IMG/VR virus record: IMGVR_UViG_3300028800_000246 | Location: 1-31,159 of that record | Direction: 5' to 3' (one strand) | Length of the DNA stretch: 31,159 nt | From: a virus | Part shown: piece by piece, positions 24,262 to 27,959 of the stretch | Layout: every line of letters starts with the position of its first letter | How positions within the stretch are numbered: the first letter of the stretch is position 1 | Translations under genes and position numbers: made by a program | The notes under the pieces: generated by a model | What the model was told of the DNA's origin: nothing | The model's database searches: none | The model's input: the letters and a program-made list of their open reading frames with translations, nothing else

Positions 24262-25284
24262 TTAAACCGGCGCTCTGACCTCACTGAGTTGTTCGATGCG
24301 ATTGAGTATCCAGCGCACAACAGGAACGGCCATAGAGTTGCCGAGCGATTTATAGCGCGGGCCGTCTGCTGCTGGTTTGTTGCGGTAGACGATTGCGGTG
24401 TAATCGTCGGGAAAGCCTTGAAGCCGCTCGCACTCGCGCGGTGTTAGGCGACGAACCGCCGAGCCGATTTGTGCACCAATTTCCTTCGATGTTCCGATGG
24501 TTGGCGAGATAACATCTGGATTCATGCTTTGTGTGATTGATGCCTTTGGTTGAAAAGCAATAACAGGCGGCACGCCAGCGTTAGCGTGCGATTTGTCGAA
24601 TGCGCCAGCGCGAAGCGTCGGGCATACCTCAATTAACCCGCCGTCACAGTCAAAGTCTGTTCCGAGTCCGCCGCCGCCTGTAGGGCGACTTGCAATTGTT
24701 GGGGCAATTCCTTGCCCCGCTTGGCGGCGCGGCGGATAATGCCCACGCAGGCTTTGCGGCTCAAAAAGTACCGCTGCGGGATATCGCCAGTCTCCAATAT
24801 GTCCGACAGCGAACACGCGCGCCCGCCGCTGCGCCACTCCGAAATACTGTGCGTCCAGCACTGTCCATGCGAGAGAATACCCGAGTTCATCCACTGTTCG
24901 CAGGAAAAGCCCGAACGCTGATCCGCCGTCAAGAGAGAGTAAGCCGGGTACGTTTTCAAACGTGAACCAGCGCGGTCTAAGCTGTCCAATAATTCCCAAG
25001 GCGACGAGGGCCAAGTTGCCGCGCGGATCATCCAAGCCGAGACGCTTTCCGGCGATTGAGAAGGACTGGCAGGGTGATCCGAAAACAATAACATTTGGTC
25101 GGCAGATTTCGGCCGCCTCTTTTGTGAAGCCATCAGCGCTCACGTCTCCCAAGTTTTGCGAGCGCGGATGACGCGCGGCCAGAACTGCGGAAGGAAATTT
25201 TTCAATCTCGGCACACCAGCGCCAATCCCAATGCGGCATAGCCGTTTCGGGCGCTCCGATGCCTGAGAACAGAGAGGCCGCCAT
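24262..25284 (-). CDS. C5 cytosine DNA methyltransferase (Dcm family)
   Basis: About 340 residues. Motif I SLFSGIGAPE (near 5-14), motif IV GSPCQSFSIAG with catalytic Cys near 72, motif VI ENV (near 111), motif VIII QRRARVFAVG, variable target region, motif IX RLTPRECERLQGFPDDY and motif X GNSMAVPVVRWI. All key motifs are present, so it is likely active. A GTG one codon upstream overlaps the VRR-NUC stop by one base; the ATG is used here. It would methylate phage DNA to avoid host restriction. Confidence 0.92.
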   Translation of the reverse strand: MAASLFSGIGAPETAMPHWDWRWCAEIEKFPSAVLAARHPRSQNLGDVSADGFTKEAAEICRPNVIVFGSPCQSFSIAGKRLGLDDPRGNLALVALGIIGQLRPRWFTFENVPGLLSLDGGSAFGLFLRTVDELGYSLAWTVLDAQYFGVAQRRARVFAVGHIGDWRYPAAVLFEPQSLRGHYPPRRQAGQGIAPTIASRPTGGGGLGTDFDCDGGLIEVCPTLRAGAFDKSHANAGVPPVIAFQPKASITQSMNPDVISPTIGTSKEIGAQIGSAVRRLTPRECERLQGFPDDYTAIVYRNKPAADGPRYKSLGNSMAVPVVRWILNRIEQLSEVRAPV

Positions 25285-25286
25285 CA

Positions 25287-25775
25287 CTACCGCCCTCCCC
25301 CATCCAGCAAATTAGGGGAGCGCGACGCGCGACCTGACGCGCTCCCCTTGCGCACCCGGCGTCCGCCGGTTGGGTTGGCCGAAGGTATAGAAACGCTGCC
25401 TACCGCCAAAAAACTGACGCCATTCCGGAACGCGCCGATGCCTTGCAGCACGCCCAAAGCCTGATCGAGGCCGAACGCAGAATGAAAGAAGCCGCCCGCG
25501 CGTTCCCAACTCTCTTTGAAGTCGAATTGGCGCGGCTTCAGCGTCCCAATCTCAGTTTTCAGTTCAACGGCGTGCGCCCTGGCATCAATAAGGAAAATCA
25601 AATCCGCGACGCCAGCGCGGAGGCCAGCGGCCTTCAATCGCGTGCCAACCTTCCAATTGCGCAATTCTCCGTTCGGAACTGAGAACCAGCAAATATCCGG
25701 CCGCGCATAGGCAGAAAGCAGTTTGATTACCTGCTCTTGCAACGCTTGTTCGGAGAGGGAAGCAGTGCGCTTCAT
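25287..25775 (-). CDS. VRR-NUC domain nuclease (162 aa)
   Basis: Core motifs: EQALQEQVIKLL (N-terminal helix with an acidic residue), VPNGELRNWKVGTRLKAAG, GVADLIFLI (D58), AVELKTEIGTLKPRQ (E71, K73, Q83), which is the VRR-NUC order of PD-(D/E)XK. The C-terminal 40 residues are low-complexity and basic. Likely acts on branched or nicked DNA during recombination. Its ATG overlaps the preceding stop by four bases; next to the methyltransferase gene. Confidence 0.82.
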   Translation of the reverse strand: MKRTASLSEQALQEQVIKLLSAYARPDICWFSVPNGELRNWKVGTRLKAAGLRAGVADLIFLIDARAHAVELKTEIGTLKPRQFDFKESWERAGGFFHSAFGLDQALGVLQGIGAFRNGVSFLAVGSVSIPSANPTGGRRVRKGSASGRASRSPNLLDGGGR

Positions 25776-25942
25776 TTTTTTTGTTCCTTAGCGCGCTCTG
25801 CCAATTCTTTTTTCAGCCAGTTGCGTGCCTGTAAAAGCGCGCGAATTTTAGCTTCGAGTTGTTTCAGATTGCAGACGCTACCTGAATCCTGAATGTACAC
25901 ATCCGGTTGGCCATCTGGTCGCAATGTGACCCCCATACTCAT
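25772..25942 (-). CDS. Small helical protein (56 aa)
   Basis: The ATG shares one base with the GcrA-like stop (TGATG), and the stop overlaps the VRR-NUC start by four bases. The N-terminal half is short-stranded (GVTLRPDGQPDVYIQDSG); the C-terminal half is a charged helix (LEAKIRALLQARNWLKKEL). Function unknown. Confidence 0.65.
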   Translation of the reverse strand: MSMGVTLRPDGQPDVYIQDSGSVCNLKQLEAKIRALLQARNWLKKELAERAKEQKK

Positions 25943-26565
25943 CACGCCACCCTCCGCGTGAAAATCAGCGACCCAACGCGCCGCGTGGCGCGCTCCGGTT
26001 CAGGCAGAACGGCGCCGCTGCCGTAACAGGAAACGCTCTGGTGATAGCTGCAATATGGGACGGAGGGAGCAGCAGCGGCGCCGCAGAAAAATTCTGGAGG
26101 ATCGTCGTAATTGCCTAACGGCCATTTGCATTGGCCGGGGGCCAGATCGGGGAATGTAGCTGGGCGCGCGTCTGGCGGTGGCAGATTGGCTCTGGGGATG
26201 CTGGCATCCAGCGGTATAAGTGGAACGATGCGCGGCGTGCGGGGGCGGGGAATCCGAATGCGGCGCTGGCTCAATTGGCGATGTAATTTTTCAAAGCCGT
26301 CATAGATTTGACGCTCTGATAGGCCCATTTTGTTGGCGGCTTGCGGAATGCGGTAGCCAGCAATGTCGAGTTGCTTAAGCTGCGCTAACCTAGCGGCAGT
26401 CCACACTGTTACGCGCGTTCCGCCGCGCTGCCAGCCTTCGCGGCGAATGACGCCAATCACGGCGCTACGGCTAACCGCACCTACCTCAGCCGCGATTTGC
26501 GAAGCCGAGTAGCCTTCTACCCACCGCCGCCGAACTAGCTCTTTTCGCTCTTCGGTCCAAGCCAT
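25942..26565 (-). CDS. GcrA-family transcription regulator with a second HTH-like segment
   Basis: 207 residues. The N-terminal 45 residues (WTEERKELVRRRWVEGYSAS, then QIAAEVGAVSRSAVIG) match the GcrA DNA-binding domain. The C-terminus (GQCKWPLGNYDD, FFCG, YCSYH) matches the family's Cys/His end. In Caulobacter GcrA binds sigma-70 RNA polymerase and DNA methylated at GANTC. Between them residues 54-98 (WTAARLAQLKQLDIAGYRI, then GLSERQIYDGFEKL) look like a second helix-turn-helix, which ordinary GcrA lacks. It probably redirects host polymerase to phage promoters; which ones is unknown. Confidence 0.8.
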   Translation of the reverse strand: MAWTEERKELVRRRWVEGYSASQIAAEVGAVSRSAVIGVIRREGWQRGGTRVTVWTAARLAQLKQLDIAGYRIPQAANKMGLSERQIYDGFEKLHRQLSQRRIRIPRPRTPRIVPLIPLDASIPRANLPPPDARPATFPDLAPGQCKWPLGNYDDPPEFFCGAAAAPSVPYCSYHQSVSCYGSGAVLPEPERATRRVGSLIFTRRVA

Positions 26566-27065
26566 TCCCCTATCCCCTCAGCCGCCTTTGGAGACGCCGC
26601 AGCTCTCGCCGCGCCGTCCACCATGCCCAAAGTGCTCGTAGTAACCGCATCGATTTGCCTCTGTAGCGCCCGAACTACGGCGCGCTCATTCTCAGCCGCT
26701 TGTTCAACACGCTCACAAATCTGCCGGTACGCTACGAGGATGTTCCAGCCGACAATCAAATTAGGTTGTTTGGCTTCAACGCTATTGCTGATAAACTTTC
26801 GCAGCCAAGACGCCGACGTGCCGACCGTCTGCGCTACGATTTCATAAGCCGCCATGCGCGATCCGGTTTGGCGCTCTTGGCGCTCAACCGCCGCAAATGC
26901 GGCATTCCGCGCTAATTTGAGAATTCGAACGGCTTCGCTGTTTGGCGAAAGCCGGTCACTAATTGTCCGACGCATTCCATTGCTCCGTGCTTGTATTGCC
27001 TTGCGACAAGCAACAGCGCGTCTTGCAGGACGCGGCACGGAGTAGTCTGGCGGACAGAAGGTCAT
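26535..27065 (-). CDS. Putative HTH regulator (176 aa)
   Basis: The ATG overlaps the preceding gene's stop by four bases. Residues about 70-95 (MAAYEIVAQTVGTSASWLRK) look like a helix-turn-helix, and the rest is helical. No family is recognised. Its 3' end overlaps the GcrA-like gene by 31 bases. It is second in the leftward operon. Confidence 0.6.
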   Translation of the reverse strand: MTFCPPDYSVPRPARRAVACRKAIQARSNGMRRTISDRLSPNSEAVRILKLARNAAFAAVERQERQTGSRMAAYEIVAQTVGTSASWLRKFISNSVEAKQPNLIVGWNILVAYRQICERVEQAAENERAVVRALQRQIDAVTTSTLGMVDGAARAAASPKAAEGIGEWLGPKSEKS

Positions 27066-27277
27066 GAGGCAGCTCGCTTTTGCCGCCGAAAAAGATCAGG
27101 ACGAAGCGCAGATGGAGAAATGCCGGTTTTTTCTGAAACAGCTAAAACCCGCTCAGCGGGGATATGCCCCTCTTCCCAACGTAAAATCGTTGATTTGTTT
27201 ACGCCGAAAAGAGCGCCAAGCTGCTCCAAGGTAAGGGGCGGATTGGCTCGTTCGCGAAATTCTCTAAGCGCGCTCAT
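27062..27277 (-). CDS. Cro-like XRE-family regulator (71 aa)
   Basis: Starting at MSALREFRERANPPLTLEQL, the HTH covers about 15-45 (LTLEQLGALFGVNKSTILRW), followed by a HIPAERVLAVSEKTGISPSA stretch common to Cro/YdaS-type proteins and ending LRPDLF. A TTG further up would be under the -35 element, so the ATG is used. There is no Shine-Dalgarno sequence and the promoter's expected start falls at the ATG, suggesting a leaderless transcript. It heads the leftward early operon. Confidence 0.75.
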   Translation of the reverse strand: MSALREFRERANPPLTLEQLGALFGVNKSTILRWEEGHIPAERVLAVSEKTGISPSALRPDLFRRQKRAAS

Positions 27278-27284
27278 GCAGAGG

Positions 27285-27313
27285 AGTGTTGCGTATTGCG
27301 CAACTTTTGTCAA
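27285..27313 (-). promoter_or_regulatory. Leftward early promoter (PL-like)
   Basis: TTGACA (27313-27308), 17-base spacer, AACACT (27290-27285). The spacer contains the operator 27288-27304. The expected start is at or next to the Cro-like ATG. Confidence 0.6.
27288..27304. promoter_or_regulatory. Operator O1, perfect 17-bp palindrome
   Basis: GTTGCG-TATTG-CGCAAC; six-base arms match exactly. It overlaps the spacer and -10 of the leftward promoter, where a repressor would block transcription. Confidence 0.65.
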
Positions 27314-27372
27314 TCCCCTTTGTTGCGAGTCGAGCTAACGACGAAAAGCGTAGCTCAATCTATGAGTTGCGC

Positions 27373-27702
27373 ATGGCGCGATTGGAAAAGCCAACCGTTC
27401 GATTGCACTACATTCCCGAATGGGCGTCGAAGCGTCGCCTAAAGCAGGCCGACATCGCGCGGGAAATCAACGCAGATAAGAGCAATGTGTCTCGCTGGTT
27501 CAATGGCGCGTTGCCAAGCGAAGATAATATCCTGCGACTCGCCGCACTGTTCGCCTGCGACGAACCGGCAGATTTATTCCGGCACCCCGATCATGATTGG
27601 ATGTGGGGGTTACTGCGGGGGCGCTCGCAAGAGGAGCAGCGGCGCATAAAGGAAACCATAGAAGCCACTATTCAGGCCGCATTTCCGCGCCGAGCCGCGT
27701 AA
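27373..27702 (+). CDS. CI-like repressor, XRE family (109 aa)
   Basis: An ATG (MARLEKPTVRLHYIPEW) is preferred over a GTG 87 bases upstream, which would put the N-terminus inside the operator. HTH at about 24-50: LKQADIAREINADKSNVSRW. The helical remainder (ILRLAALFACDEPADLF, then EEQRRIKETIEATIQ) may form dimers. It lies between two operator-bearing promoters. No own promoter was recognised. No Shine-Dalgarno sequence is clear. Confidence 0.72.
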   Translation: MARLEKPTVRLHYIPEWASKRRLKQADIAREINADKSNVSRWFNGALPSEDNILRLAALFACDEPADLFRHPDHDWMWGLLRGRSQEEQRRIKETIEATIQAAFPRRAA

Positions 27703-27718
27703 GCCATTGAACGGCTTA
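27700..27718 (+). terminator. Weak terminator-like hairpin after the repressor gene
   Basis: TAAGCC-ATTGAAC-GGCTTA, a perfect six-pair stem starting at the repressor stop, with a short T-rich stretch (AATTTTC) after a few bases. Efficiency is doubtful. Confidence 0.35.
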
Positions 27719-27741
27719 GGCTAATTTTCGCCGTTCATTTC

Positions 27742-27758
27742 GTTGCGTATTATGCAAC
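27742..27758. promoter_or_regulatory. Operator O2
   Basis: GTTGCG-TATTA-TGCAAC; one mismatch in the arms and 15 of 17 bases identical to O1. It lies just upstream of the rightward promoter's -35. Confidence 0.6.
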
Positions 27759-27765
27759 TTTTCTA

Positions 27766-27794
27766 TTGACGGCAGTTGCGTTATATGCAACTCT
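27766..27794 (+). promoter_or_regulatory. Rightward promoter (PR-like)
   Basis: TTGACG (27766-27771), 17-base spacer, AACTCT (27789-27794). Operator O3 begins at spacer base 4, exactly as O1 does in the leftward promoter. It would start near 27801, in the hairpin leader of the first accessory gene. Confidence 0.55.
27775..27791. promoter_or_regulatory. Operator O3
   Basis: GTTGCG-TTATA-TGCAAC, in the spacer and start of the -10 of the rightward promoter. Confidence 0.6.
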
Positions 27795-27795
27795 T

Positions 27796-27817
27796 GCTCT
27801 CAGTTGAACGGGAGAGC
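27796..27817 (+). repeat. Leader hairpin repeat, copy 1
   Basis: GCTCTC and GAGAGC flank a 10-base loop AGTTGAACGG, and the right arm holds the GGGAG ribosome-binding sequence of the 31-residue peptide. A second copy lies before the next gene. Confidence 0.6.
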
Positions 27818-27820
27818 GCC

Positions 27821-27916
27821 ATGACCAACATCCTTCGAAACATCTTTGAACTGAGCGTGACGTTGACCGTGATCGGCGCCGTCACTTGGCCGCTCTGGCT
27901 GCAAATCCTCGGCTGA
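27821..27916 (+). CDS. 31-aa membrane peptide
   Basis: An ATG with GGGAG 6 bases upstream. The product MTNILRNIFELSVTLTVIGA continues VTWPLWLQILG, with one hydrophobic span over about 10-30. First gene after the rightward promoter. Function unknown. Confidence 0.55.
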   Translation: MTNILRNIFELSVTLTVIGAVTWPLWLQILG

Positions 27917-27940: not shown

Positions 27941-27959
27941 CTCTCAGTTGAACGGAGAG
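27941..27959 (+). repeat. Leader hairpin repeat, copy 2
   Basis: CTCTC-AGTTGAACG-GAGAG; nearly identical to copy 1, again with the ribosome-binding sequence inside the right arm. Confidence 0.6.

Follow-up and report, generated by a model that had tools for sequence, protein, structure and literature searches.

A probable lambda-type immunity region with GTTGC-N7-GCAAC operators at both outward promoters in a viral genome record and its relatives

The window, which is the whole stretch of DNA analysed here and comprises a 31,159-base IMG/VR virus record, very probably carries a lambda-type immunity region, the bistable lysis/lysogeny switch of a temperate phage. A CI-like repressor gene lies between two outward promoters, as stated in a preliminary description of the sequence, and a palindromic operator is situated within the spacer of each promoter. 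The lambda-like reading of that description is supported by 64 de-duplicated related loci (see below). No integrase was found in the 31-kb record, which may be partial. The features of the region are as follows, in order of position.

27062–27277, minus strand: Cro-like repressor gene (71 aa; HTH_3/HTH_31), first of the leftward operon, predicted to be leaderless
27285–27313, minus strand: leftward (cro) promoter, with TTGACA at 27313–27308, 3 bp, operator O1, and -10 AACACT at 27290–27285
27288–27304: operator O1 (OR1-like), GTTGCGTATTGCGCAAC, inside the cro promoter spacer; an exact site, and conserved
27322–27339, plus strand: candidate degenerate operator O1' (OR2-like), GTTGCGAGTCGAGCTAAC, assigned by position only in the window
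27338–27366, plus strand: predicted cI promoter, with a weak -35 ACGACG at 27338–27343, 17 bp, and -10 TATGAG at 27361–27366
27366–27382: candidate operator O2 (OR3-like), GTTGCGCATGGCGCGAT, overlapping the cI start codon, assigned by position only in the window
27373–27702, plus strand: CI-like repressor gene (109 aa; Pfam HTH_3/HTH_26), with a Cro/C1-type HTH and short C-terminal helices
27742–27758: operator O3 (OL2-like), GTTGCGTATTATGCAAC, 33 bp upstream of O4
27766–27794, plus strand: rightward promoter, with TTGACG, 3 bp, O4, and -10 AACTCT
27775–27791: operator O4 (OL1-like), GTTGCGTTATATGCAAC, inside the rightward promoter spacer
27821–27916, plus strand: small 31-aa ORF that opens the rightward operon; Shine-Dalgarno-like sequence GGGAGAG

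The exact palindromes GTTGCG-N5-YGCAAC of the preliminary description are present at 27288, 27742 and 27775, all flanking the CI-like gene, with the 27742 site being the third copy that had been placed upstream of the rightward promoter. These are the only exact GTTGC-N7-GCAAC sites in the window, where 0.06 are expected, and an order-1 Markov model gives ~1.6e-10 for three falling within 504 bp. Only the two outward promoters, at 27766(+) and 27313(-), show the complete TTGAC[AG]-N3-operator pattern, in agreement with the 3-bp spacing originally noted. In both promoters the final AAC of the palindrome is the beginning of the -10, although AACACT (leftward) and AACTCT (rightward) are poor -10 matches; the earlier AACNCT is accurate for the window, but the family consensus is AAC-TAT/TAA.

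Both proteins, whose lengths of 109 and 71 residues are as first reported, are identified as Cro/C1-type regulators by Pfam and PHROGs. Pfam finds no S24 peptidase domain in the 109-residue protein, and its AlphaFold model (pLDDT 86.7) shows two additional C-terminal helices besides the HTH domain; by predicted structure the phage repressor closest to the HTH is P22 c2 (1.6 Å over 58 columns), and a PDB sequence search with the CI-like profile gave no match. A profile of the Cro-like homologues matches the solved Cro proteins 3bd1 and 8co2. The leftward operon also encodes a GcrA-like cell-cycle regulator (25942–26565, minus strand; Pfam GcrA, E 2.8e-23) and a C5 cytosine DNA methyltransferase (24262–25287, minus strand), and a GcrA-like gene is likewise present near the switch of Pseudanabaena phage Pam5.

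Searching with tblastn and the CI-like protein identifies homologues in Pam5, Rhizobium phage PPF1 and two Microcystis phage records, in each of which a divergent small HTH gene adjoins the CI homologue. With an alignment of four sequences, 63 loci are recovered from viruses and 14 from bacterial genomes, giving 64 loci with a median pairwise CI identity of 48% after removal of near-duplicates; the relatives share ancestry. Alignments were needed to find them: a single-sequence genome scan yielded no relatives, single-sequence searches of viral contigs yielded one false match for the CI-like protein (L001) and one distant relative for the Cro-like protein (L002), and a plasmid collection gave no match. 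Where the record title names an organism it is mostly one of the Rhizobiales, together with one metagenome bin labelled Phycisphaerales, and some relatives are inside bacterial contigs of Rhizobium, Shinella, Kaistia, Ancylobacter and others.

Absence of the sites from relatives had been named as grounds for abandoning the initial interpretation; the sites, the 3-bp spacing and the position on both arms recur across ~60 divergent loci. Nearly all loci have sites with at most one mismatch where these are expected, including upstream of cro, and exact sites number 118 inside the immunity regions of relatives versus 3 in 387 kb of flank. A DNA-only scan of viral contigs with TTGAC-N4-GTTGC-N7-GCAAC-N10-ATG, in which no protein information was used, gives 20 matches, 16 of them with a CI/Cro pair and several of these being new members. 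The likeness of left and right operators within a locus is unmatched among shuffled loci (0/20,000), which had suggested concerted evolution, but it only slightly exceeds that to the nearest relative (p=0.04), so that we place no weight on this reading; the likeness mostly reflects shared ancestry.

The leftward transcript had been proposed to start at the cro ATG, and the -10 would place the start 0–1 nt before it. This geometry recurs in the ~60 divergent loci and in the DNA-only scan: the cro ATG is 8–11 nt past the operator in 60 of 63 de-duplicated loci, so that the predicted start falls within ~2 bases of the ATG, and the TTG of the -35 begins exactly 9 nt before the cro-side operator in 53 of the 63 (10 nt in 7 more). 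Pairwise identity among relatives is 93% in the operator arms versus 31% in the linker between operator and ATG; spacing is thus kept here, not sequence. Three relatives (L014, L015 and L030) have a second operator abutting O1, 17 bp start to start, forming tandem sites at the cro promoter.

Between cI and cro only O1 is clear in the window, and the degenerate O2 and O1' would not be singled out by its sequence, although both are clearer in relatives. Candidate O2 has two mismatches, in its right half; in 24 of the 63 loci a site with 0–1 mismatch lies 76–78 bp from O1 and mostly contains the cI ATG, which itself is 82–87 nt after the start of O1 in 57 of 63. Candidate O1' is 34 bp from O1 and adjoins the weak -35 of the cI promoter. 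In most loci TTGC recurs at +34/35 and TAAC at +46 to +48 from O1, and the motif GTTGC-N6/7-GCTAACGAC in relatives starts 33–34 bp from O1, a spacing equal to that of the right-hand operator pair, and ends in the weak -35 (nnGAC). Its centre is near -43 from the cI start, and lambda OR2 lies at a similar distance from the PRM start; we infer that it is an OR2-like site. The cI promoter is predicted to start at the cI ATG. Upstream of this codon TA occurs at -13 to -11 in 51 of 59 loci (vs 6.4% of other ORF starts) and CGAC at -38 to -33 in 38 of 59, and cI therefore also looks leaderless, with a -10 overlapping the start-codon operator. The counterparts at 27366–27382 and 27322–27339 would probably complete a lambda-like plan of 3+2 sites. 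The region was at first called miniature, but probably is not, because the start-codon operator and the degenerate middle site bring the total to about five.

On the right, relatives have an operator pair 32–35 bp apart beyond cI in ~50 of 59, and in 49 of 59 a TTG that begins 9 nt ahead of the proximal operator. This recurrence on both arms supports the proposal that one repressor would control both from a spacer-embedded operator. The 31-residue product of the first rightward ORF has no family match. An inverted repeat, CTCTC(AGTTGAACGG)GAGAG, is present at 27796–27817 and 27941–27959, before the first two rightward genes, with its 3' arm being the Shine-Dalgarno sequence; judging by the -10 position its 5' arm may precede the transcription start. 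Among 58 relatives, 23 have a perfect stem of at least 6 bp no more than 45 nt from the right operator (7 expected), and the repeats in the window fold only modestly better than shuffled sequence (z of -1.6 and -0.3).

Some loci depart from the common pattern. In the outgroup L002 a palindrome GTACGC-N5-GCGTAC lies over the cI start codon, with TTGCGC 3 bases before it and the cro ATG 9 bases after; the arrangement of 3 bp, a 17-bp palindrome, 9 nt and ATG is thus retained with another palindrome, and the geometry outlives the operator sequence. Loci L069 and L070 share the recognition motif, cro-side operator and layout, but their CI has an S24 peptidase domain, so the family holds both cleavable-looking and uncleavable-looking repressors. 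In L092 and L105 the TTGAC-operator-ATG layout is shared by a different protein pair (a CI-side ORF of 283 aa and another of 100 aa), and a further exact site lies at a distance of 123 bp; these two loci may represent another type of switch built on the same operator.

The recognition helices bear on which proteins use these sites. Across loci that of CI is mostly DK[SG].VSRW and that of Cro [DNH]K[STAG]...RW or close variants, a likeness ([DN]K[SGA]...RW) that fits both proteins binding the same operator; in L002 both carry another motif, TRG.VS..ERG. Alternatively, the palindromes could be operators of one protein only, with the other using different or fewer sites. There is precedent in telomere phage PY54, where Cro binds OR3 alone and neither the cI nor the cro mRNA has a leader (PMC4488713), and half-site mismatches at O1 are uneven, 21 on the -35 side versus 5 on the -10 side. 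We regard this as unlikely, given that the CI and Cro helices are alike within the family and that both differ in L002, as does the palindrome.

A P2-type switch, in which the peptidase-less repressor and the opposing HTH protein would act as C and Cox, appears less probable still. The size of the repressor and its lack of a peptidase domain match those of P2 C. On the basis of predicted structures, the authors of the Pam5 genome paper compared the homologous gp52 and gp53 with C and Cox of P2 (PMC9382816). Against this, the profile of the opposing protein matches Cro-family structures with no Cox family match, CI and Cro share a recognition motif, palindromic sites are found on both arms, also beyond cI, and some relatives carry the S24 peptidase. 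That the palindromes lie by chance near ordinary promoters has a negligible probability: the weak -10 matches would suit it, nothing else does, and with 0.06 sites expected it is already refuted by conservation across ~60 loci.

In the lambda-type scheme that we favor, the 109-residue CI-like protein probably dimerizes via its short C-terminal helices and would bind GTTGC-N7-GCAAC. With O1 (inside the spacer of the cro promoter) and O3/O4 (at the rightward one) occupied, RNA polymerase would be kept off both lytic arms. The protein probably also sits on the degenerate O1', adjoining the weak -35 of its own promoter, and may activate cI. Cro would recognize the same sites and shut off cI via O2, the site lying over the -10 and start codon of cI, with cI and cro mRNAs both predicted to be leaderless. 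The sites, their spacing and conservation, the gene order, the similarity of the recognition helices and the absence of a peptidase domain from the repressor are seen by sequence and comparison, and from these we infer binding, dimerization, cooperativity, activation and promoter starts. Induction would occur without RecA-driven self-cleavage of the 109-residue repressor.

It is conceivable, and we suggest it only tentatively, that two opposing repressors made from leaderless mRNAs, with the cI start codon inside an operator, constitute a family-wide switch chassis in which the state of the translation machinery also influences the lysis/lysogeny choice, and in which SOS-cleavable and peptidase-less repressors can use the same operators; if true, the latter would separate immunity from mode of induction. 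One operator and one geometry offer a sequence-level definition of the immunity region for a large and little-studied set of temperate phages, many of them in Rhizobiales, which could make superinfection immunity and prophage switches predictable from sequence. The lambda-like plan is kept here with a small, uncleavable-looking repressor, and relatives with a peptidase-bearing repressor on the same operator offer a natural counterpart for asking what governs prophage induction. A literature search, with most subscription papers outside its range, found no description of a GTTGC-N7-GCAAC operator family.

Among known systems lambda is similar: its cI and cro diverge from an intervening operator cluster, a second cluster past cI serves the opposite arm, OR1 and OL1 are placed inside the spacers of PR and PL (geometry read from the lambda record), and the weak -35 of the cI promoter is beside a middle operator, which in the window is a candidate. 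A spacer-embedded operator on both arms is therefore a classical design and not unusual. The differences from lambda are the peptidase-less 109-residue repressor, the operator sequence and the predicted leaderless cro, which in lambda has a leader. In addition, the gap from -35 to operator is 4 bp in lambda and 3 bp here, lambda sites are 20–24 bp apart versus 33–34, a candidate operator here overlaps the cI start codon, and the second arm comes straight after cI, with no rex between them. P22 c2, the closest phage-repressor fold to the HTH of the window, has a C-terminal cleavage and dimerization domain that the window repressor does not. Another rhizobial phage, 16-3, has an operator-controlled immunity region served by its C repressor, with operators (ACAA-4/6 bp-TTGT) unlike those of the window.

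The nearest named counterparts are Pam5 gp52/gp53, PPF1 and Microcystis phages Mwe-JY25 and JY07, whose CI proteins are 47–52% identical and which have a homologous Cro and the same operators and layout as the window; O2 is missing in Pam5, and PPF1 and the Mwe phages have extra genes between cI and the right promoter. Pam5 gp52 and gp53 have been named lysogeny regulators, with no operators described in the accessible part of that paper (PMC9382816). In the telomere phage PY54 the cI and cro mRNAs are both leaderless, by RACE, and an operator lies upstream of cI (PMC4488713). Its operator is different and only one was found there, and host and proteins are unrelated at this level, but it shares with the window an operator upstream of cI and leaderless cI and cro, as predicted here.
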